A DNA stretch of 64,000 bases from Methanosarcina barkeri 3. GTDB taxonomy: Archaea; Halobacteriota; Methanosarcinia; Methanosarcinales; Methanosarcinaceae. The notes beneath the pieces were generated by a model. That model ran no database searches, had not been told where the DNA came from, and worked only from the letters and a program-made list of their open reading frames with translations. The position numbers were made by a program, and so were the translations under genes. The DNA lies in contig NZ_CP009517.1 in the NCBI RefSeq assembly GCF_000970305.1, forward strand, positions 1,364,001 to 1,428,000, in the 5' to 3' direction. Positions within the stretch are counted from its first letter, which is position 1. Every line of letters begins with the position of its first letter. Shown here in pieces: positions 195 through 19,209 of this stretch.

Positions 195-512
195 ATGAAA
201 ATGATCCGTGCCATACTACGTCCTGAATGGACTGAAGAAGTAACAGACGGACTTGCAGAAGCAGGTTATTATTCCCTTACAAAAATAAACGTCTTCGGAA
301 GAGGGAAACAAAAAGGTATCACTGTTGGCAATGTGCACTATGATGAACTCGCAAAAACAATGATTATGATGGCTGTAGAGGATGAGGCTGTCGACGAGGT
401 AATAAAAATAATTTCCGGAAAAGCATATACTGGCAGCATGGGAGACGGAAAAATCTTCGTGAATACTATTGAAGATGCATATACAATTAGCTCGGGTGAA
501 AGAGGATTATGA
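195..512 (+). CDS. nifI1: Nitrogenase PII-like regulator NifI1
   Basis: A 105-residue GlnB/PII-family protein. It starts at ATG 195 behind a purine-rich Shine-Dalgarno sequence (GGGGG at 181-185). The PII core is visible: the T-loop region starts around GRGKQKG (residues 36-41) and the nucleotide-binding B-loop is TGSMGDGKIFV (about 79-89). In methanogens NifI1 and NifI2 form a complex that binds dinitrogenase and switches it off when ammonium is available, with relief by 2-oxoglutarate and ATP. Its place between the iron-protein gene and the D subunit is the standard archaeal nif arrangement, 18 bp after vnfH. I infer control of V-nitrogenase activity. Confidence 0.92.
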   Translation: MKMIRAILRPEWTEEVTDGLAEAGYYSLTKINVFGRGKQKGITVGNVHYDELAKTMIMMAVEDEAVDEVIKIISGKAYTGSMGDGKIFVNTIEDAYTISSGERGL

Positions 513-558
513 AGAATAATCTAAAAGATAAAAAAATTTAGAACCTGGATGTTTTCAT

Positions 559-2728
<2,170 letters not shown>

Positions 2729-2732
2729 CTAA

Positions 2733-4133
<1,401 letters not shown>

Positions 4134-4153
4134 ATGAAAGGAGGAAAAAATCG

Positions 4154-4174
4154 ATGACAACCAAAGGTACATGA
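4154..4174 (+). other. Orphan Shine-Dalgarno and 6-codon ORF
   Basis: Immediately after vnfK, AAAGGAGG (4138-4145) precedes ATG 4154 at ideal spacing, but the frame closes after MTTKGT (TGA 4172-4174). It is followed directly by tandem repeats. This could be a leader peptide or the decayed 5' end of a gene once located here. No matching gene body is visible. Confidence 0.4.
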
Positions 4175-4180
4175 TGTGAA

Positions 4181-4341
4181 CATAACGAGATCATCTTCTA
4201 TGGTAGTTACATAACGAGATCATCTTCTATGGTGGTTACATAACGAGATCATCTTCTATGGTGGTTACATAACGAGATCATCGTTACATAATGAGATCAT
4301 CTTCTATGACGGTCATATAACAAGATTACCTTCTATAGCGA
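4181..4341 (+). repeat. 29-bp tandem repeat between vnfK and vnfE
   Basis: The unit CATAACGAGATCATCTTCTA plus nine further bases (TGGTGGTTA or a close variant) starts at 4181, 4210 and 4239. A 19-bp truncated copy follows at 4268, then degenerate copies at about 4287 and 4314. Most of the 324-bp vnfK-vnfE gap is this array. No clear promoter is visible, but a start of transcription here cannot be excluded. Confidence 0.85.
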
Positions 4342-4457
4342 TTTTCGGAGCCGTAACTGCCTGAGTATCTTGTTTGATAGCATAAAGCTGTAGCTAAACG
4401 CAATCAAGAAGTTTTTGTTTTTTGATTGTAACCGGTTTCAATAATAATGAGGGTAAT

Positions 4458-5987
4458 ATGGTCGGCATTGCTAACGAAAGTGTAGTGTTTTTTGGACATT
4501 TAAGCGAGCTTTATCAATTAGCGAAAGAAGGAAAAATTGAAACAAAACTACAGGGAAGCCATACCCGTCCCTGTAAATTCTGGACGGCTATGAAAATCTT
4601 AAGCGGCATTAAAAATACTGTTGTTATTGCTCATGGTCCAAGTGGCTGCGCATTTGGAGTAAAACAGGCTTATAAGCTAACAAATTGCAGAAATAGCGGT
4701 TCCCCATACGAATCCATTATTACTACAAATATTGATGAAAAAGCCATTGTATACGGTGGCGAAAAGGAACTACAGGGCGCCATATTCGAGGTAGACAACA
4801 AATATAAGCCTGATATTATTTTCGTAGCTACAAGCTGTGCCACCGGAATAATTGGAGACTATGTAGATGCTATAGTGAACAAAGTTAAGCCCAAAATTAA
4901 CGCCGAAATCATGGCCATTCACTGCGAAGGTTTTGCGGGAGAGTACAGGAGTGGGTTTGACCTGGTCTTCAGGCAGATTGTTCAGCTTATGGATAAGCCT
5001 GATCCAGAGAGCAAATCAAAGCTTGCAAAATCCGTTAATATCGTAGGGGGCAAAATGGGCCCTGAGAGGACGGAAATTGAAACTGATGTTAAAGAACTGA
5101 GGCGGTTAATAGAAAGCATGGGTGCAAGTATAAATGCCGTAATAGCAGGTAGTTGTTCACTGGAAAAAATGAAACAGGCTCCCAGTGTAGCGGTAAATTG
5201 TACCCTTTGCCTTGATATGGGGTATGCTATAGGAAGAGAGATGCTTGACCGGTTTGGTACTCCTTTAAACTCTACGATTCTGCCATGTGGCATAAGCGCA
5301 ACCGAGAAGTGGCTAAGAGGAGCAGCCAGGCATTTACATCTCGAAACTGAAGCTGAAGAACTGATCAAAAGAGAATATGAAGCCATAAGTGTCGAATTTG
5401 AAGAGGCGAAAAAATGCCTTGCAGGAAAGTTGGCAATTGTTGAAGGGCATGATGCGATAAAGTCTCTGTCAATTGCTCATATGCTTGAACGTGATTTTGG
5501 TATGAGGGTGGCTATATACAATTTTCATCCCTGGAGCACGCAGGCAAGAGAAACAAGTATTGATTACCTCTTAGAGACCGGGCTTGATCCTGAAATACTG
5601 ATCACAAAAGGTACTCTTGCCTTTGGAAAATATGAGGCAATGGTTCAGACTGAAAATGAACTTATGGAATATCTGGGAGATTTGGATCCTGAGACAACCG
5701 TGTATTTTGGGTCATCAATGAGTTTTCCGAATATTCCTGTAGTTGATTTAAATTCCATATTAAACCGCCCAAGATTTGGTTATAGAGGAGCCTTAAAGGT
5801 AGCTAAATGCGTTTGTACTGCTCTTGAGTATTCTTTCAGACCTCGCAGCTGGGTAATGAAAAAAATGGTATTCTCTGAAAATTCCGGGCTGTGTTCAGCT
5901 CAGTCCCTCACACCGAAACTAGCTCAGGATTTGCCGGATTGCACATTTTATGCAGGAAAGGAGAGAGGCAAATGTATGACGAGTTGA
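4458..5987 (+). CDS. vnfE: FeV-cofactor scaffold protein VnfE
   Basis: 509 residues from ATG 4458, chosen because GAGGG (4449-4453) precedes it at proper spacing; the frame is also open from a TTG at 4422. It belongs to the NifD/NifE superfamily. Conserved cysteine contexts are GSHTRPCKFW, AHGPSGCAFG and ATSCATGIIGDY, and IHCEGFAGEYRSG is typical of the family. VnfE and VnfN form the scaffold on which the FeV cofactor is completed before transfer to VnfDGK. The last 16 nt overlap the start of vnfN. The array upstream separates it from vnfK, so it may be transcribed by read-through or from its own promoter. NifE-like would be the conservative name. Confidence 0.88.
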   Translation: MVGIANESVVFFGHLSELYQLAKEGKIETKLQGSHTRPCKFWTAMKILSGIKNTVVIAHGPSGCAFGVKQAYKLTNCRNSGSPYESIITTNIDEKAIVYGGEKELQGAIFEVDNKYKPDIIFVATSCATGIIGDYVDAIVNKVKPKINAEIMAIHCEGFAGEYRSGFDLVFRQIVQLMDKPDPESKSKLAKSVNIVGGKMGPERTEIETDVKELRRLIESMGASINAVIAGSCSLEKMKQAPSVAVNCTLCLDMGYAIGREMLDRFGTPLNSTILPCGISATEKWLRGAARHLHLETEAEELIKREYEAISVEFEEAKKCLAGKLAIVEGHDAIKSLSIAHMLERDFGMRVAIYNFHPWSTQARETSIDYLLETGLDPEILITKGTLAFGKYEAMVQTENELMEYLGDLDPETTVYFGSSMSFPNIPVVDLNSILNRPRFGYRGALKVAKCVCTALEYSFRPRSWVMKKMVFSENSGLCSAQSLTPKLAQDLPDCTFYAGKERGKCMTS

Positions 5988-7336
5988 TATTCGATAACTG
6001 CAACCACAGCAGGGACCCTATGGTAGGATGTGCTCTTGAGGGTGCTACCGGAGTGCTGGCAGGCATCAAAGACATTAGTATTGTCATACATTCCCCGCAA
6101 GGTTGCTCTTCAACGGTTTCGGCAGCCTATGACATCCATGAAATCGATTTTACGAAAAGAAAAGTTGCATGCACCAGGCTTTTTGAAACAGATGTGATAA
6201 TGGGTGCTTCAAGCAAGCTGAAAAACTTAATCAAAGAAGCCGATTCGAAATTTAAAACCAGGGCGATATTCGTAGTTGGTACTTGTGCAGCTGATATCAT
6301 TGGCGAGGATATTGAAGGCTTATGCCGAAATATCCAGCCTCAAACTGATGCGAAGCTTATTCCCTTGATGGCAGGAGGATTTCGAGGAAATCTCTATGAT
6401 GGTATTGAACTGGGGCTGAACGCGTTACTTCCGTTTATAAAAAAGCAAAAGGAAAAACTTCCGAACACTGTGAACTTAATAGCGCCTCAAGCAAACCTGA
6501 ACCCCACATGGTGGGCGGATTTGAAATGGATACGCGAAACCTTTGAAAAAATAGGAATTAAAGTCCAGGCTGTGCTTCCTCACGATACGTCTCTGGAAGA
6601 ACTGAATAATGCCGGGCTAGCATCGGCGAATATACTTCTCAGTCACGATGCCGGGTATCAATTTGGGTTAAAAATGCAGGAAGTGCATGGTATACCGCTT
6701 ATACTATCGGACATTCCACTCCCAATAGGACTTAAAAATACTTCAAGATGGCTTCGTGCAGTGGGAAAATACTTTGGCGTCGAAGAAAAAGTTGAGGCAA
6801 TAATAAAAGAAGGAGAAACTATGGCCATTGATGTCCTGAGACGCAGGGGGTTGATGATGATCCCCAGGTACCGTAACTGCAGAGTAGCTGTTTCGGCGGA
6901 TGCGACTATGGGAATAGGCCTGACCAGAATGTTATTTGAAGAGCTGGAAATGATTCCGGAGCTGTTGTTGTTCAGATCGCCTGTATCTGATTCTCAGTTT
7001 CTATTGGAAAATGAGCTTAACAATATGGGAATTTCCCCGAAGGTTGTTTTTTCGGCGGATGGATATCAGATAAAACAATCTTTGATGGAAAGCTGTATAG
7101 AAGCTGTATTCGGTTCTTCGTGGGAGTATTATCTGGCTGAAGAACTGGGGATAAAATTTGCGTTTGATGTTTTTAACCCGACAAACCGACAGAACTACCT
7201 GAACAGGGCATATTTCGGATACGAAGGCATGCTGAACTTTTTGGAAAATGTTGCAAACGACTGGGAAAGGGCTCTGCGTTCAAAGCATATTAACTGGGAA
7301 GAGTTTTCGGAACTGGCTAAAAAATGGAGCTTATAA
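5972..7336 (+). CDS. vnfN: FeV-cofactor scaffold protein VnfN
   Basis: 454 residues from ATG 5972, supported by the strong Shine-Dalgarno GGAAAGGAGAGAGG (5955-5968). It is a NifK/NifN-superfamily protein: CNHSRDPMVGCALEGATG near the N-terminus, HSPQGCSSTVSAAYD around residue 47, and VVGTCAADIIGEDIEG around residue 106. These hold the cluster cysteines that would pair with VnfE. It overlaps vnfE by 16 nt, which suggests coupled translation. Cofactor assembly is inferred from family and context. Confidence 0.87.
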   Translation: MYDELIFDNCNHSRDPMVGCALEGATGVLAGIKDISIVIHSPQGCSSTVSAAYDIHEIDFTKRKVACTRLFETDVIMGASSKLKNLIKEADSKFKTRAIFVVGTCAADIIGEDIEGLCRNIQPQTDAKLIPLMAGGFRGNLYDGIELGLNALLPFIKKQKEKLPNTVNLIAPQANLNPTWWADLKWIRETFEKIGIKVQAVLPHDTSLEELNNAGLASANILLSHDAGYQFGLKMQEVHGIPLILSDIPLPIGLKNTSRWLRAVGKYFGVEEKVEAIIKEGETMAIDVLRRRGLMMIPRYRNCRVAVSADATMGIGLTRMLFEELEMIPELLLFRSPVSDSQFLLENELNNMGISPKVVFSADGYQIKQSLMESCIEAVFGSSWEYYLAEELGIKFAFDVFNPTNRQNYLNRAYFGYEGMLNFLENVANDWERALRSKHINWEEFSELAKKWSL

Positions 7337-7337
7337 T

Positions 7338-7766
7338 ATGGACACCGAATGCACAATTTTAAATGAAGTAACAAAAAAGAGCTCTGAAAATTTTAAGGTG
7401 GCAGTTACTTCAAAAAATGGAAAACTTGTCGACCAGCACTTTGGGCAAACAACCGATTTTATGATTTTTGAGTTTACTGGTGAGGATTATAAGTTTCTCG
7501 AGACACGCTCGACAAAGAAGTACTGCAATGGAGGTAATGAGCTTAACAATGAATACCGTAGGAGGAAAGAAGCAATAGAAACAATCTCTGACTGTGATGC
7601 TGTGCTTTCTATGAAAATCGGGTTGAGTGCACAAAAAAAGCTTAGAGAGCTAGGAATCGACTGCATTGAATATTGTCACACCGTTGAGAGGGGATTAAAA
7701 TATTTACAAACCATGAGAAGCAAAAAAGTGACAAAAATTAGCTTACATCCTGTAGCATTGTTTTAA
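7338..7766 (+). CDS. NifX/NifB-C-type cofactor-binding protein
   Basis: 142 residues from ATG 7338, directly after vnfN. The domain is the dinitrogenase iron-molybdenum cofactor family (NifX, NafY and NifB C-terminus): FKVAVTSKNGKLVDQHFGQTTDF near residue 20 contains the conserved DxHFG-type motif, and ETISDCDAVLSMKIG and LGIDCIEYCHTVERGL follow. Such proteins bind cofactor precursors and carry them between NifB, the EN scaffold and apo-nitrogenase. By position it is a VnfX-like carrier. No radical-SAM domain is attached, so NifB must be encoded elsewhere. Confidence 0.8.
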   Translation: MDTECTILNEVTKKSSENFKVAVTSKNGKLVDQHFGQTTDFMIFEFTGEDYKFLETRSTKKYCNGGNELNNEYRRRKEAIETISDCDAVLSMKIGLSAQKKLRELGIDCIEYCHTVERGLKYLQTMRSKKVTKISLHPVALF

Positions 7767-10212: not shown

Positions 10213-11295
10213 TTATGTGCTGGCAGGAGGTAGATGCTGCAGTATCCTGTTTGCTTCATCATCTGTTAAGTTATAGTGGTAGAATTTTGAATAGTAATCT
10301 TTGACCTCGTTAGTCATATTCAAATCCTCAAACAACTCAGGATGCAGACTTTTTGCAAAATACTCCATAAGTAACACCCCTTCAGCACCACCATCCCAAT
10401 AGGCTACTCCCTGTGGGCACAGATACACTCTGTTATTCTTCACGGCTTTTATATTACTCAACCGAGAATCATTTGTAATTATATCTGTACTGTTAACTCG
10501 GCCTACAAAGATCACATCAGGATTCCATGCTAGCAGTTGTTCCATTGTGACACTTTGAAGCCCTTCTTTGCTGGTATTTTTCGCAACACAGTTCCCGCCA
10601 GCCATTTCGATATACCACTGTGTGTAAGAATATTTACCCTGTGTCGTTATTGCATCAGGACCTCTGGCATAGTATACTGTTGGACACTGACTATCTGTAA
10701 GGTTTGCAGTTCTTGATGTCACATAATTCGCTTTCTGATCGAAGTATGCACCCCATTCGTCTGCAATCTTTTTCGCATCCGGCCCCATTACCTCACCGTA
10801 AAGTGCTATTTCCTGTTTCAGGTATTTAGTGAACGAGTCTATGTTTTCAGGGTTTCCTGAGTTCTTCTGAGTGATCACTACAGAGATATTACTCGAATTC
10901 AGTTTCTCCTTATTACCATCATATGACAAACAAAATACTACCTGCACTTTTTTGCGAATAAGATCCTCAACATTAGGGTCATCTTCTATTGATATATTTT
11001 TTAATTGAGGAGCTATTTTGGAAGACCAGGGTAGATTAGTCCACGCAGATAATGTGACTGCCATTTTGTCTGTCTGGTTCAGCAAAATCAGTTTTTCATA
11101 TGACTGACCAGCAAGAGCAGCTACACGGGTAACATTCGTTGGTATAGTTACGATTCTACCCTCTTGATCTGCAATCCGTATGCCCGGATCAGAAGTTTTT
11201 ATTCCTTTGCTACTATGATCTATATTTATTGAAGCAGATATTATTGCAATGACTGCAAGAACTGCAATGATAGCTACTATACCCCTTTTGTCCAC
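10213..11295 (-). CDS. ABC transporter substrate-binding protein (FepB/BtuF type)
   Basis: 360 residues. The N-terminal hydrophobic segment (about 6-23) acts as a signal peptide or anchor; unlike the two plus-strand homologs in this region there is no lipobox cysteine. The class-III binding fold is evident: RIADQEGRIVTIPTNVTRVAAL, VEDLIRKKVQVVFCLS, SVTMEQLLAWNPDVIFVG and VKNNRVYLCPQGVAYWDGG. It is the last gene of a minus-strand operon (permease, ATPase, binding protein), starting 31 bp after the ATPase stop. Predicted role: extracellular capture of a metal chelate for the permease. The ligand is unknown; the vnf genes next door make a V or Fe chelate a reasonable guess. Confidence 0.88.
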   Translation of the reverse strand: MDKRGIVAIIAVLAVIAIISASINIDHSSKGIKTSDPGIRIADQEGRIVTIPTNVTRVAALAGQSYEKLILLNQTDKMAVTLSAWTNLPWSSKIAPQLKNISIEDDPNVEDLIRKKVQVVFCLSYDGNKEKLNSSNISVVITQKNSGNPENIDSFTKYLKQEIALYGEVMGPDAKKIADEWGAYFDQKANYVTSRTANLTDSQCPTVYYARGPDAITTQGKYSYTQWYIEMAGGNCVAKNTSKEGLQSVTMEQLLAWNPDVIFVGRVNSTDIITNDSRLSNIKAVKNNRVYLCPQGVAYWDGGAEGVLLMEYFAKSLHPELFEDLNMTNEVKDYYSKFYHYNLTDDEANRILQHLPPAST

Positions 11296-11326
11296 CCAAT
11301 CACCTCAAGTTTTTTGATATCCCAGA

Positions 11327-12136
11327 TCAAAAACATCCTGCATCCACATGTGGCTGTTGTATTTGCATAGGTATACATGCTCTTCTATGCTCATTTACAT
11401 CCAGAATTTTGACATCTACTCCATAGGCCTGCTTCATATTATGTTCGGTAACAACAATTTCCGGTCTTCCGATTTCCATAATTGTGCCCTGGTTCATGAT
11501 GGCTACTTTATTACAGGATAAAAAGGCGTGGTCTGGAAAATGTGAAGTCATTACAACCGTTAGTCCGGTTTTAGATAATTCTTGTATGACTTTGAGTGTT
11601 CGTATCTGGTTTCCGAAATCCAGATGGGATGTCGGTTCGTCTAGGAGAAGGATTTCGGGCTGTTGAGCTATTGCTCTTGCCATTAAAACAAGTTGTTTTT
11701 CACCACCACTGATCTCAGTGTAGGTTTTATTCTTTAGATGCGAGATTCCAAGCCTTTCCAGAGCTTCCTCAACGATTTTGTAATCTCTCTTTCCAGGAAC
11801 AGATGTTAAACTCAAATGCGGAGTTCTGCCCATTAGAACTATATCAAAAACTGAAAACGCAAAAGTTGAATAATTTGACTGCGGGATATACCCAATGATT
11901 TTTGCAAGTTCGGTTTCTTTCATTGAATAAACACACTTATTTTTCAGTAATATCTTGCCGCTTTTCAGTTTAAGAAGCCGGTTCATACATTTGATTAAAG
12001 TCGATTTTCCGGTTCCGTTAGGCCCTAATATGCATAAAACGTCTCCTTTCTCGATAGAGATGTTCACATTTTTGAAGACGCTTTTCTTTCCGTTATAAGA
12101 AAACTCTGCATTCTTAATATCCATTATATTGCTCAT
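11327..12136 (-). CDS. ABC transporter ATP-binding protein (FepC/BtuD type)
   Basis: About 269 residues from ATG 12136, which overlaps the permease stop as ATGA and follows GAGGG at good spacing; another ATG lies at 12142. Walker A is GPNGTGKST near residue 38, the Q-loop is GYIPQSNYS, the signature is SGGEKQ, Walker B is ILLLDEPTSHLD and the switch histidine is in MTSHFPDHA. Length and motifs fit the iron-siderophore/cobalamin/haem importer ATPase group. It energises the adjacent permease. Confidence 0.92.
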   Translation of the reverse strand: MSNIMDIKNAEFSYNGKKSVFKNVNISIEKGDVLCILGPNGTGKSTLIKCMNRLLKLKSGKILLKNKCVYSMKETELAKIIGYIPQSNYSTFAFSVFDIVLMGRTPHLSLTSVPGKRDYKIVEEALERLGISHLKNKTYTEISGGEKQLVLMARAIAQQPEILLLDEPTSHLDFGNQIRTLKVIQELSKTGLTVVMTSHFPDHAFLSCNKVAIMNQGTIMEIGRPEIVVTEHNMKQAYGVDVKILDVNEHRRACIPMQIQQPHVDAGCF

Positions 12137-13173
12137 GACCATCCCTCGTAACCTTTTTGGAGTAAGTATATGAAAACGGGCGCTCCTATTATGGCTGTCA
12201 GTATTCCCAGAGGAATTTCAATGGATGTGGCTGTTCTGCACACATCATCAACCAGCAGAAGGAAAGTAGCCCCCAGTGAAATACTTGCAGGCAAAAGTTT
12301 TCTATGATCCGGGCCCACGAGAATTCTGGCTGCATGAGGTATTACAAGGCCTACCCAGCCAATGATGCCACTTATACTTACGGCGGAAGCTGTTAGGAGT
12401 GTACAACAAAGAATTACAATCAATCTCATTTTTTCCGTGTTTACACCCAGTGCACGTGCTTCATCGTCGCCCATTGAAAGAACATTAATTCTCCATCCGA
12501 TAAGCAATAATGCTGCAAATCCGATAAGAGTAGGCCCTATTATCATCAAGATACTATTACTGTTAACTGCAGAGAGGCTACCCATAAGCCAGTACACTAT
12601 TTCCGGTAGTTTGCTGTCAGGATCTGCAACGTACTTGATGCATGAAATAAGAGCAGAAAAGAGTGCTGCGATAGCTATCCCTCCCAATACCATCACCAGA
12701 ATAGTATTACCTCTAAGTCTTTTGCTGAGAGAATATGTGAAGATAACTGCGATCAGGCCGAATAAAAAGGCTGTAGTCTGAATCATTACTACGGAAAAAC
12801 TGAACAAAATAGCTATTGCAGCTCCAAAACCTGCACCCGATGAGACACCAAGGATGTCCGGAGAAACCAGTGGGTTCTGGAAAGTTCCTTGAAAAGAAGC
12901 TCCTGAGATTGAAAGAGCCGCACCCACAATCATCGCAGCTATTATACGGGGCAGACGTATATCCCAAACGACTGTATAAATAGTTGAATCTAAATTTGTA
13001 GTAATAGGCACAAAAACAGATACAATAGCCAGTATTACATCCTTAGGAGATACTGGATATCTGCCAATCATAAAAGATCCGAAGAACAAAAGTATTGGGA
13101 GTGCAACCAAAATGGTTGTTAAAGATATATTTCTAATAGTTTCTATGGTTTCCTTATTTATTCGTCTGTTCAT
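12133..13173 (-). CDS. ABC transporter permease (FecCD/BtuC type)
   Basis: 346 residues with about ten hydrophobic segments. FecCD-family motifs are visible: RLPRIIAAMIVGAALSISGASFQ, FQNPLVSPDILGVSSGAGFGAA, LGVNTEKMRL and ISGIIGWVGLVIPHAAR. It forms the membrane channel for metal-chelate import and is the first gene of the minus-strand operon. The ATPase gene overlaps its last 4 nt. A 635-bp divergent intergenic region separates it from another binding protein on the plus strand. Confidence 0.92.
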   Translation of the reverse strand: MNRRINKETIETIRNISLTTILVALPILLFFGSFMIGRYPVSPKDVILAIVSVFVPITTNLDSTIYTVVWDIRLPRIIAAMIVGAALSISGASFQGTFQNPLVSPDILGVSSGAGFGAAIAILFSFSVVMIQTTAFLFGLIAVIFTYSLSKRLRGNTILVMVLGGIAIAALFSALISCIKYVADPDSKLPEIVYWLMGSLSAVNSNSILMIIGPTLIGFAALLLIGWRINVLSMGDDEARALGVNTEKMRLIVILCCTLLTASAVSISGIIGWVGLVIPHAARILVGPDHRKLLPASISLGATFLLLVDDVCRTATSIEIPLGILTAIIGAPVFIYLLQKGYEGWS

Positions 13174-13808
13174 TATTTTTCCACACTAAACGTTTACAAA
13201 TTATCCGTAGTTTCTTCGGAGTATATTTTTCAAGCCCGCTTATTTAGTTCAAATGTAGCTAATTTGAGGCAACAGCTACTCGTCCTCTGTTTAACTGTGT
13301 AACTTTTATAAATTGTATTTTTGTATCTCCTGTACTATTTATTTCTCAATTTTAATTTATTTGGATATTTCGTATGTATTATGTCTAACTAGACATAACA
13401 AATTATATATTCTAAAATACCAGTATCTTATTTCCTAGATACTAGTATATATAATTATTTATGCGCGAAATTTCCTGTATGCATCTTTGATTCGATAAAA
13501 AAGTAAATAGAAATAAACCAATTAAAAATACACATCCTTTTTTGACCCTGTTGTTAGCTCTTTTTGTTATTTAGTTTGATAATTGTCTCTTAAGTGGCAT
13601 ATTTTTAATGAAAATAAGAAAGGTCAATTTATGAATTAATTATATATACTACATAGTAGGTAATTGAATTCTGTATTAATTAGATATAATCTTTGTTATG
13701 GTGGGATGAACATATCGCATGCAAACTGCAAAATGAAATTTAAAAGTTATACAAAGAAACAAATCGTAAGCTATGGGATGGACTCAAAAATATTAAAGAG
13801 ATATTAAG
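13174..13808. promoter_or_regulatory. Divergent regulatory region with inverted repeats
   Basis: 635 bp, very AT-rich, between the ABC importer operon (-) and a binding protein (+), so both promoters should lie here. Palindromes are ATGTCTA-AC-TAGACAT (13381-13396), AGTATCT-N8-AGATACT (13422-13443) and CTAC-ATA-GTAG (13649-13659). The last lies just after a TATA-like TTATATATA (13640-13648). These are candidate operators for a metal-responsive regulator. No known site consensus was matched. Confidence 0.45.
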
Positions 13809-14942
13809 ATGAGATCAACAAAAAGGCCACTAAGTTTGTTAATTTCACTGTGTCTGTTAATGGCACTAGTTATACTGCTTATAAGTGGATGCTCACAGAA
13901 AACAAGCGATGACATAACGGCATCAGCTCCCGCAGTTGACAGAACTGATGCAACAAACACAGAGCAGGAAACAACATTGTCGGATACTGCACTGTCAGAT
14001 ACTCGGGTAATTACCGATCTAGCAGGCAGAAATGTTACATTGCCTGCTGAAATTACCAGAGTTTCAGTATTACATCCTATACCATGCCAGATGGTATGGA
14101 GACTGACACCGAAAAAACTTGTTAGTGTGGACAAGCAGTTTACCGAGCGGCTGGAATTTATGTCAGATGATGAAGAGAAAAGACTGCTGCGTCTTCCGAT
14201 TAACGGAGAATTCCACAGTGACATGAACGTGGAAGATCTTTTAGCAGTCAGCCCTCAGGTTGTAATAACATTAACAAAGGATACGAAAATCGAATCCGAA
14301 CAAAAAGAAGCTGGCATTCCATTTGTTGCTGCATCAAAAGATACGCTTGAAGAGATTGCAGATTCATGGAGGTTAGTCGGCAAAATTGTTGGAAATGAAA
14401 AAGAAGGAAATGAACTTGGAGACTACTGGGACGAGACTATCAAAAAAGTTACCGATCAGACCTCGAAAATTAATGAAAGTGACAAGCTTAAAGTATATTA
14501 TGCGCAATCAGATGTCACCAAGACGGTTGGGTCCAGAACCATTATGGCATCTATCATCAGTTTCGCGGGAGGCATAAGTTTCATGGAAGCAAACCCGCAA
14601 ATGGAATCGGCTAATACAAGTGAAGAAATCCAGGTTTCACTGGAACAAATCTACAAGTGGAATCCAGACGTAATTATTACCAAAACCGCAAAAGGTCGTG
14701 ATGAAATTCTCTCGAAAAATGCCTGGAAAGATGTCGCTGCCGTAAAGAATAAGCGTGTTTACGCATCTACAAAATACGAGATGCTTGACCGAACACAATC
14801 GCTGATGGGGCTCCTTTGGACTGCTAAAGTGCTTTATCCGGATAAAGTGAAAATAGACCTGAACAAAGAAGTAAAAACATTTTATTCAAAAGTATATCTT
14901 GATAATAATGTGACGAATGATCAAATCAGTCAGACAAATTAA
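13809..14942 (+). CDS. ABC transporter substrate-binding lipoprotein (FepB/BtuF type)
   Basis: 377 residues. Signal peptide with lipobox LLISGC (C28), then a Ser/Thr/Ala linker and a class-III binding domain: VITDLAGRNVTLPAEITRVSVL, NVEDLLAVSPQVVITLT, VSLEQIYKWNPDVIITKTA and VKNKRVYASTKYEM. It is the third binding protein of this type within 7 kb, divergent from the importer operon, and has no permease of its own. It probably feeds the 12133-13173 permease with another chelate, or works with a distant importer. It is followed by the Cys-tailed protein at 15046. Confidence 0.87.
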   Translation: MRSTKRPLSLLISLCLLMALVILLISGCSQKTSDDITASAPAVDRTDATNTEQETTLSDTALSDTRVITDLAGRNVTLPAEITRVSVLHPIPCQMVWRLTPKKLVSVDKQFTERLEFMSDDEEKRLLRLPINGEFHSDMNVEDLLAVSPQVVITLTKDTKIESEQKEAGIPFVAASKDTLEEIADSWRLVGKIVGNEKEGNELGDYWDETIKKVTDQTSKINESDKLKVYYAQSDVTKTVGSRTIMASIISFAGGISFMEANPQMESANTSEEIQVSLEQIYKWNPDVIITKTAKGRDEILSKNAWKDVAAVKNKRVYASTKYEMLDRTQSLMGLLWTAKVLYPDKVKIDLNKEVKTFYSKVYLDNNVTNDQISQTN

Positions 14943-15045: not shown

Positions 15046-16110
15046 ATGTTAACTGTTGAAACAAGCGGACTCAAAGGAATAACGAGCTTTACCACATATG
15101 ATGGCGGTGAACTGAAGGACTGTAAGCTTAAAGAGTATAATTTGATTCACACAAAGTACGGAGATCTTGTTCCGCAGTACGGTAATCCGGGGTTTAGAAA
15201 AAAGCAGTTAGCAGCTTTGTCTTTCTATAAAAATGGTAAAATCAAAAGCATTTCTTTAGAGCAGCAGACTGAAATAAGCACACCAATGGGGATACTTCCG
15301 GCTGAACTGGTTACTTTTTTTGAAGACGGATCAATTAATAGTTTATTCCCTTTAAACGGCCAGATAAGTGGTTTCTGGTCGGAAGAAGAAGAAGGCAAAC
15401 TTGCACAAAAACTCCATTTTTCATTCCCATTTGGAGACTTTTGTGCAAAAATAATAGGACTGCGATTTTATCCTGACGGAAGAGTCAGAAGCCTGATTTT
15501 ATGGCCGAATGAACGAATCATAATTGATACTCCTGCAGGAAAAATGCCAGTTCGAATAGGATTTAGGCTTTTTGAAGATGGGAGCATAAAATCTGTAGAA
15601 CCTGCAGAACCATTCCTGATTGAGACCCCTATTGGCTCGGTAAATACATATGATGCGGACGCACTTGGCATTGATGCAGACAAAAACTCAGTGTGTTTTG
15701 ATGAAAAAGGTAGATTAATTTCTCTTTGTACTTTCGACATCATTACAGTCAGAAAGAAAAACGGTGAAAAAGAAATAATTTTTCCAACATTAAGGCCGGG
15801 CTTGACAACCGAATATGAAAAAGTGCCGATTAAATTGTTCTTTGATACTGATACTGTAAGCATTGGTGATACTAAATCTATAGACTATAATGATAGTACT
15901 AAAGCTGCAGACTACAATGATAATACTAAAGCTACAGACTACAATGATAATACTAAAGCTACAGACTACAATGATAATACTACAGACTACAGCGGTGATG
16001 CCAGAGCAGTTAACTACAAAATAGCTGAATGTACATTCCTTATCATGCGCGGTAACTATATGGAAACAAAATCATGTGGCGATTGCTCCAGTTGTAAGGG
16101 TTGTATGTAA
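15046..16110 (+). CDS. Beta-repeat protein with CxxCxxCxxC tail
   Basis: 354 residues, unrecognised family. ATG 15046 follows AGGAAGG. The first 270 residues consist of short repeats such as LSFYKNGKIKSISL, VTFFEDGSINSLFP, LRFYPDGRVRSLIL and FRLFEDGSIKSVEP, resembling the MORN-like repeats of YwqK-type proteins. A 9-residue tandem repeat (YNDNTKATD, about 279-315) follows. The last residues contain SCGDCSSCKGCM, a CxxCxxCxxC cluster suited to metal or Fe-S binding. There is no signal peptide, so it is probably cytoplasmic. It lies 103 bp downstream of a metal-chelate binding protein. A role in metal handling is inferred. Confidence 0.7.
   Translation: MLTVETSGLKGITSFTTYDGGELKDCKLKEYNLIHTKYGDLVPQYGNPGFRKKQLAALSFYKNGKIKSISLEQQTEISTPMGILPAELVTFFEDGSINSLFPLNGQISGFWSEEEEGKLAQKLHFSFPFGDFCAKIIGLRFYPDGRVRSLILWPNERIIIDTPAGKMPVRIGFRLFEDGSIKSVEPAEPFLIETPIGSVNTYDADALGIDADKNSVCFDEKGRLISLCTFDIITVRKKNGEKEIIFPTLRPGLTTEYEKVPIKLFFDTDTVSIGDTKSIDYNDSTKAADYNDNTKATDYNDNTKATDYNDNTTDYSGDARAVNYKIAECTFLIMRGNYMETKSCGDCSSCKGCM
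15883..15990 (+). repeat. 27-bp in-frame tandem repeat
   Basis: Units of 27 bp starting at 15883, 15910, 15937 and a shortened one at 15964 encode DYNDxTKAx. Later copies are nearly identical, pointing to recent expansion within the coding sequence. Confidence 0.88.
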
Positions 16111-16319
16111 CCTGATGTGTAATAATTGAGCTTATTTCAAAAAAAATTACTTCCAATTCTCATAGACCAATATTAGAATAGATAAAAGGTTCAATAGAAC
16201 TAAACAGAATATATGCCCTCTTTTTTGATAGCCCATCAAACATCTTCAAAACCTAAAATTTTACTTACTTTTTAAGGCTAAGTAATACTTGTGAAAAAAT
16301 TATTTCTGATAATTCTTGA

Positions 16320-16415
16320 ACCAGTAACTATGACTATTCTTGGGTCAGTAAATCTGACCATCCTTCAATCAGTAACTGTGACTATTCCTGGATCAGTGGC
16401 TCCGATTATTCCTAA
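16320..16415 (+). repeat. 24-bp tandem repeat upstream of asnB
   Basis: Four diverged 24-bp units (16320, 16344, 16368, 16392) of the type ATCAGTAACTGTGACTATTC plus four bases. They fill part of the 436-bp gap 16111-16546. The remainder of the gap is AT-rich with no other recognised element. Confidence 0.8.
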
Positions 16416-18088: not shown

Positions 18089-18420
18089 ATATACCTACTT
18101 AATAGAATAATTAACTCCTTACCTGGTGAATTTGTTCGTTATATCTTTTTAAATATCCTTTAACTTTTAACAAATATCTTTCTGACTCTTATAAAACGAA
18201 AAGACTTTAAATAATACTCTCAAAGGAATGATAGGGTGAAGCCAGAGATAAATGAACAAGTATAAACAGCTTGATGATTATATCCCTGCTTAGAAATCAC
18301 TATATTTAGTCTGAGTTAACAATTAATCTGAATCAACGATTAATCTGAATCAACAATTAATCTAAACTAATAAATGATTTAAAACACTTAAGTTTAAATT
18401 AATGTTCAGGGGGAATCCTC

Positions 18421-19209
18421 ATAAAAATAGCAATTACCGGAAAAGGCGGCGTTGGAAAAACAACTCTCTCAGGTACTCTGGCCAGACTGTTTGCAAGAGA
18501 CGGGTACGAGGTACTGGCAATAGATGCAGACCCGGATATGAACCTGGCATCTTCGCTTGGGGTCGAAAATCCCCCTAAGCCCCTGACAGATTTCAAAGAC
18601 CTGATTCAGGAAAGAGCGGGTGCAGAAGGCGGAGCTTTCATCTACAACCCTAAAGTCGATGACATTGCAAGTAAATACGGAGTTATAGGGCCCGATGAAG
18701 TAAGAATGCTCGTTATGGGCACTGTAGACCGCGGTGGAAGTGGATGCATGTGTCCGGCCTCGGCTTTCCTGAGGGCTCTTCTCAGGCACCTTATGCTCAA
18801 GGAAAAGAGTGCAGTGATCCTTGATATGGAAGCAGGGATCGAACATCTCGGAAGGGGCACTACAAGAGGAATGGACCTCATGATCGTGGTAGTTGAGCCA
18901 GGGGCAAGATCGCTTGAAACGGCTGAGAGAATAAAAAAGCTGTCTTCCGAAATAGGAATAAAACACCTTGCTGCTGTAATTAATAAAGGAGGCGCGGGGA
19001 AAGTTAACGACAAACTTGAGGAGATGGGCATCCAGGTACTTGGAGAAATTCCCTTTGACCCCAAATTAATGCAGGCTGACCTGGAGAAACGGGCTCCTAT
19101 TGAGGTAGGCGGCGAAGCTGTTGATGCTATAGTAAAAATTAAGGAAAAACTGATGGAAGTCGTTGAAGAGATCAGGATAGAAGAGGAAGCTAGCAAGAGC
19201 AAAAAGTAA
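18421..19209 (+). CDS. cooC: CO dehydrogenase nickel-insertion ATPase CooC
   Basis: 262 residues if translation starts at ATA 18421. The reading KIAITGKGGVGKTTL immediately follows this codon, and the deviant Walker A motif (residues 7-16) is essential, yet no ATG, GTG or TTG occurs in frame between the upstream TAA (18400) and it. The first in-frame ATG (18538) would remove the ATP-binding site. AGGGGG (18408-18413) sits at good spacing before ATA. Other motifs are AIDADPDMN and C109-x-C111 (GCMCPAS), the metal-binding CxC of CooC dimers. CooC uses ATP to help insert nickel into the CODH C-cluster. No CODH gene is in the window. Confidence 0.88.
   Translation: MKIAITGKGGVGKTTLSGTLARLFARDGYEVLAIDADPDMNLASSLGVENPPKPLTDFKDLIQERAGAEGGAFIYNPKVDDIASKYGVIGPDEVRMLVMGTVDRGGSGCMCPASAFLRALLRHLMLKEKSAVILDMEAGIEHLGRGTTRGMDLMIVVVEPGARSLETAERIKKLSSEIGIKHLAAVINKGGAGKVNDKLEEMGIQVLGEIPFDPKLMQADLEKRAPIEVGGEAVDAIVKIKEKLMEVVEEIRIEEEASKSKK

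Follow-up and report, generated by a model that had tools for sequence, protein, structure and literature searches.

The engineering of nitrogen fixation would benefit directly from answers to two questions: how cells separate Mo, V, and Fe cofactors, and what additional proteins the alternative nitrogenases of archaea require. An open reading frame of unfamiliar type in a 64-kb stretch of Methanosarcina DNA (hereafter the window) raises the question of whether it encodes one of these proteins.

The BRN gene and its surroundings

The ORF, given the working name BRN, occupies positions 15046..16110 of the plus strand and encodes 354 aa from an ATG start. A vanadium nitrogenase cluster, likewise on the plus strand, fills the first 8 kb of the window. 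A P-II/NifI1-like gene (195-512) and an ORF in the NifI2 position (559-930) precede VnfD (951-2393), VnfG (2390-2728), and VnfK (2748-4133), which scored above the NCBIfam cut-offs (TIGR01860, TIGR02930, and TIGR02932). These are followed by two NifE/N-type scaffold genes (4422-5987 and 5891-7336) and a gene for a NifX/NafY-type protein (7248-7766). The iron-protein gene in the vnfH position starts just outside the window (L105:5350-6177), and together with positions 195-7766 it makes the cluster complete. Elsewhere in this genome are an anf operon, at G000:C1:2481657, and, at about G000:C1:3.54 Mb, a Mo-nif cluster.

Between this cluster and BRN, Pfam identified the ABC ATPase (11327-12142, minus strand) and FecCD permease (12133-13173, minus strand) of a metal-chelate importer, and a FepB-like binding lipoprotein (Peripla_BP_2; 13809..14942, plus strand). 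The lipoprotein gene ends 103 bp upstream of BRN, with which it is probably co-transcribed. FecCD/ATPase importers with Peripla_BP_2 lipoproteins were seen inside the vnf island both here (10213-14942) and at L079:1450-7222, and in G076 HMGL/homocitrate-synthase-like genes accompany the importer in the vnf island. The importer is a candidate for supplying nitrogenase by uptake of V, Mo, or Fe chelates.

Architecture of the BRN protein

Neither a signal peptide nor a membrane helix was apparent in BRN, as expected of a cytosolic protein. The dN/dS ratio between the BRN gene of the window and eight other Methanosarcina copies was 0.09-0.17, indicating that the gene is real and, as judged from these comparisons, under purifying selection. 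The alignment, an AlphaFold2 model, and a weak match to PF07661 together delimit a conserved beta-hairpin (MORN_2-like) core at 15079..15870 on the plus strand (residues about 12-275), in which the motifs PQY, PAE, FPL, FW, S-EP, and TPIG are invariant or near-invariant in the alignment. This body is what defines the family. The model, built from an input alignment of 27 sequences, had a mean pLDDT of 81 and a pTM of 0.77; structure prediction, which the earlier note had proposed as a check, gave a confident beta core (pLDDT largely above 85-90) and low confidence for the linker (pLDDT <50 at residues 281-318) and the Cys tail.

The MORN-like strand repeats claimed in the earlier note were recovered, if faintly. 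MORN_2 (PF07661) matched the window protein at 21.3 bits, below the gathering cut-off of 29.6, and matched 24 of the 27 members at E<=0.1 when each was scanned singly (best E 6e-9). With so many relatives matching, it is credible that the hairpin repeat is distantly MORN_2-like. BRN shares with MORN_2 proteins (PF07661; YwqK/COG2849 type) the short F/Y-x-x-x-G-x-hydrophobic beta-hairpin repeats, but differs from them in falling below the Pfam cut-off, in its family-specific motifs, in its strict linkage to nitrogenase, and in having no identified toxin partner.

NCBIfam yielded no match for the window protein, nor any meaningful one for the family. Searching the PDB by sequence gave no solved structure, and Foldseek comparison of the model with the PDB returned nothing below E 0.08. 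Scans with Pfam and NCBIfam gave no match to the AnfO profiles (PF09582 and TIGR02940), and PF02579 (NafY/NifX/VnfY) had no sequence match to BRN. As judged by these searches, the family fits no Pfam, NCBIfam, or PDB family, in agreement with the initial failure to recognise it. A clear match to a known cell-surface or toxin-antitoxin family, which would have overturned the first reading, was also sought; beyond the weak MORN_2 similarity none appeared, and PADLOC returned zero defence matches. The weak MORN_2 matches, and a Foldseek search of a viral library in which the best of the uniformly weak matches include MORN-repeat and YwqK proteins, would fit a MORN_2/YwqK-type immunity or cell-surface protein that lies in nif islands by chance. 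This explanation is barely credible, since the gene is under purifying selection, neither a toxin partner nor a PADLOC match was identified, and the strict co-occurrence with nitrogenase described below already largely refutes it.

Two features had first drawn attention to BRN, and both were confirmed in the window. The 27-bp coding tandem repeat was located by TRF at 15869..15992 on the plus strand, in frame, as an array of 4.6 copies (90% match, score 197) with the unit ATDYNDNTK, coding for the disordered linker. This expansion is private to the window's genome; no BRN homologue has the array, a single DYNDD-like unit is present in G076, and most homologues have none. The terminal CxxCxxCxxC, read as CGDCSSCKGCM at 16075..16107 (plus strand), is the only occurrence of this pattern in the six-frame translation of the window. 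Almost every Methanosarcina copy retains the four Cys (G073 has three), as do several Clostridia-type members (L034, L070, L071, L072, and L073). The tail is not universal, however: it is absent in all nine Selenomonadales-type members, cut to one Cys in three Chlorobiaceae members, and missing as a four-Cys motif in 12 of the 27 aligned sequences. The family-wide conservation that marks an Fe-S or Zn tail protein was therefore not found. Because the array is private and the tail is present in part of the family, neither defines BRN, and the tail cannot be the core function, given that one large clade has lost it. The tail might be a tethered ligand for a metal or cluster, optional in the family, although we regard this as doubtful.

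Association with nitrogenase and AnfO

The distribution of BRN was surveyed in archaea, two Bacillota groups, and one pattern scan of GTDB genomes. The p-values for co-occurrence are naive throughout and too small, because the genomes share ancestry and are not independent. In the order of Propionispira (G433; Selenomonadales-type), BRN was detected in 9 of 189 genomes and a strong NifD in the same nine (naive p 1.4e-15). A Bacillota sample of 348 genomes (phylum of G432) held 55 with nitrogenase, among them all six BRN carriers (naive p 1.2e-5); three of the four genomes with an unmistakable alternative nitrogenase carried BRN, compared with 3 of the 51 other diazotrophs (Fisher p 0.003, equally naive). 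Among 393 archaeal genomes of the phylum, BRN was found only in Methanosarcina, where nitrogenase was present in 13/13 carriers and 3/11 non-carriers (naive p 2e-4). Across the samples, none of about 480 nitrogenase-negative genomes had BRN, so that within the genomes checked it was restricted to those with nitrogenase. Plasmid carriage was not detected by tblastn. On these genome comparisons, BRN is very probably linked to nitrogenase.

The association extends to the type of nitrogenase. BRN was intact in all seven Methanosarcina with an alternative nitrogenase; of nine Mo-only diazotrophs of the genus, it was intact in four, broken by frameshift or truncation in two (G070 and G078), and absent in three (naive p 0.03). 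Such breakage and absence fit a relaxed need after loss of the alternative nitrogenase. Six of the 13 BRN-carrying Methanosarcina have Mo nitrogenase alone. G084, presumed to be M. acetivorans, has all three nitrogenases and two BRN copies, one of which lies a few kb beyond the vnf cluster.

BRN adjoins anfO, with which it is operon-linked, in three lineages, namely seven Selenomonadales-type genomes, the Bacillota genome G964, and Methanosarcina G098. The order is anfO to BRN in the Selenomonadales-type genomes and G098 and BRN to anfO in G964; in the latter two genomes BRN overlaps or abuts anfO beside alternative nitrogenase genes. The seven Selenomonadales-type pairs, from nine such genomes, have nitrogenase structural genes within a few kb, and we infer the presence of nifH in these clusters from position. 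AnfO was present in 13/13 BRN-carrying Methanosarcina and 14/17 BRN-carrying bacteria. The Chlorobiaceae members have neither AnfO nor an alternative nitrogenase and stand among unrelated neighbours, and several other bacterial members are distant from nif genes; adjacency to nitrogenase or accessory genes thus holds in several lineages, not in all. Two further observations concern these loci. Methanosarcina genomes contain broken or partial anfO genes at G000:C1:2479221-2479367, G032:C1:2626456-2627030, and G084:C1:1434050-1434544, with intact copies elsewhere in G000 and G084. At L063, L064, and other Selenomonadales-type loci, the AnfO/BRN pair is flanked by a CbiQ-type ECF transporter whose ATPases include one that has a TrpP-like domain.

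In the seven Selenomonadales-type genomes nifI1, nifI2, nifD, and nifK are no more than a few kb from BRN, as might be expected of a post-translational nitrogenase regulator or sensor of the NifI or DraT-like kind that responds to metal or redox through the Cys tail. We consider such a role improbable, since Pfam and NCBIfam recognised no enzyme or ligand-binding domain in BRN, the PDB gave no fold match, and the tail is not conserved. The earlier note had suggested metal sensing or delivery; its metal-related setting stands, and a carrier or sensor is compatible with it, but nothing specifically supports sensing, and the constant companion of BRN is nitrogenase, often with AnfO.

In the tree of the family, the main Methanosarcina clade groups with Bacillota G964, whereas BRN from G098 separates from the other Methanosarcina copies and joins Bacillota bin83; the long branches of G098, G964, and G826 make their placement less sure. 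This topology makes it likely that the gene has crossed between Bacillota and Methanosarcina at least twice.

Shared control sequence and proposed role

An operator-like palindrome, AGGAAATARGWWWCTGNWTTCC, was found with no mismatch before anfH, the anf operon, vnfH, fecCD, and BRN (G062, G078, and G100). About 77 motif matches were obtained in 24 genomes, compared with 1 for a reversed control pattern. Genome-wide, exact matches were found at anfH, anf, vnfH, fecCD, the FepB-like lipoprotein gene, and BRN, and at one unassigned site (G032:176932); Mo-nif promoters gave weak partial matches only. The form AGGAAATAGG-WWW-CTG-NN-TTCC stands beside a TATA-like stretch upstream of BRN in G062, G055, G100, and L033 (G078). 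In G084 the motif precedes anfH, the anf operon, and vnfH, as it does with small changes in the window's genome. A CCG variant (AGGAAATAGG..CCG..TTCC) was seen at G000:C1:2908018, 2513963, 2734779, and 4009950 and at G084:C1:1431646 and 1935267, at some sites before FepB-like lipoprotein genes, and may represent a separate, though related, class of operator.

In the window itself, the copies are weaker than the exact sites elsewhere. With a matrix trained without the window sequence, its two best scores both fell inside the 635-bp fecCD/lipoprotein intergenic region: a copy of 16.9 bits at 13413..13437 (minus strand), 264 bp upstream of the divergent fecCD operon, and a weak copy of 14.1 bits at 13657..13681 (plus strand), 152 bp upstream of the lipoprotein gene. 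The fecCD-side spacing is kept at 252-266 bp in L029, L079, L080, and L081. Read-through from the lipoprotein promoter into BRN is likely, because the lipoprotein gene ends so close before it. No motif above 12 bits was present near BRN in L075 and L076 (M. acetivorans-type copies) or in L078, and an NrpR-type GGAA-N6-TTCC operator was not found upstream of BRN. Taken from these motif positions, BRN likely shares a regulon with the alternative nitrogenases in Methanosarcina.

Membership of the same probable regulon, in an arrangement confined to one group, can explain the FepB-type neighbour. Such a gene is directly beside BRN only in the M. barkeri-like group (the window, L029, L079, L080, and L081); other Methanosarcina and the bacteria lack this neighbour. 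The idea that FepB-type proteins are constant companions of BRN was rejected; the neighbourhoods in Methanosarcina, Bacillota, and Chlorobiaceae rule it out as a family rule. The linkage is probably local and co-regulated. A narrower form of the role suggested in the earlier note, a metal carrier that takes Fe, V, or Mo from the FepB/FecCD importer through its Cys tail and passes it to nitrogenase assembly would agree with the place of BRN close behind the lipoprotein gene, the motif shared by the fecCD and lipoprotein promoters, and the four C-terminal Cys. It is nevertheless unlikely, since the majority of homologues have no importer of this kind next to them and the Selenomonadales-type proteins have no Cys tail.

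BRN is probably an unrecognised nitrogen-fixation helper and not a general metal sensor, because it was found only in nitrogen fixers among the genomes checked and has a control sequence common to vnf and anf. The chances seem even that it is a cytosolic nitrogenase accessory or maturation factor that acts with AnfO when Mo is short. AnfO sorts nitrogenase cofactors: its N-terminal domain binds the immature FeFe protein, and its tethered C-terminal domain captures FeMo- or FeV-cofactor, by which misincorporation is prevented (PMC11938142, with earlier work in PMC9310841). The two proteins are alike in being nitrogenase-linked and cytosolic, often with adjacent genes, and the docking domain, flexible linker, and capturing C-terminal domain of AnfO (PMC11938142) broadly resemble the modelled layout of BRN, in which a stable body is followed by a flexible stretch that differs in length between members and, in some of them, by a tail with the potential to bind metal. 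BRN lies outside the AnfO family, however, consists of beta-hairpin repeats, and ends in a short Cys motif rather than a domain, so that the likeness is analogy, not membership. By this analogy, it falls just short of an even chance that BRN is a maturation partner of AnfO. The NafY/NifX/VnfY carriers (PF02579), one of which is encoded at 7248-7766, are accessory to dinitrogenase maturation, as is proposed for BRN, but share no PF02579 sequence match with it. A literature search turned up no paper in which MORN-repeat proteins are mentioned together with nif clusters.

In the proposed mechanism, BRN would be made when Mo is scarce and would act with AnfO in maturation or cofactor sorting of dinitrogenase. 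Its beta-repeat body may dock on immature dinitrogenase, or on AnfO or NifX-type carriers. In Methanosarcina and several Clostridia-type members, the four-Cys tail on its flexible tether could keep a metal or Fe-S species close to where the body docks, a step modelled on the tethering of a cofactor-capturing domain to the apo-FeFe protein by AnfO. Put at its fullest, and tentatively, BRN would be a new part of alternative nitrogenase maturation, acting with AnfO to sort or deliver cofactor or heterometal. It would have travelled with nitrogenase between Bacillota and Methanosarcina on more than one occasion, and it would be part of a Mo-starvation regulon defined by a new operator. As an unnamed family that tracks nitrogenase closely, near AnfO and under a vnf/anf-type operator-like motif, BRN is a compact, testable candidate, and M. 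acetivorans is a genetic model in which it could be tested.

Two further features lie downstream of BRN in the window. Imperfect 24-bp direct repeats are present at 16312-16397, between BRN and an asparagine-synthase-like gene. Further on, a P-loop sequence (IKIAITGKGGVGKTTLSGTL) at 18400-18540 is in frame with, and upstream of, the first ATG, GTG, or TTG of the ORF at 18538-19209; translation of this CooC-like ATPase may begin at a codon outside the standard set, for example ATA.
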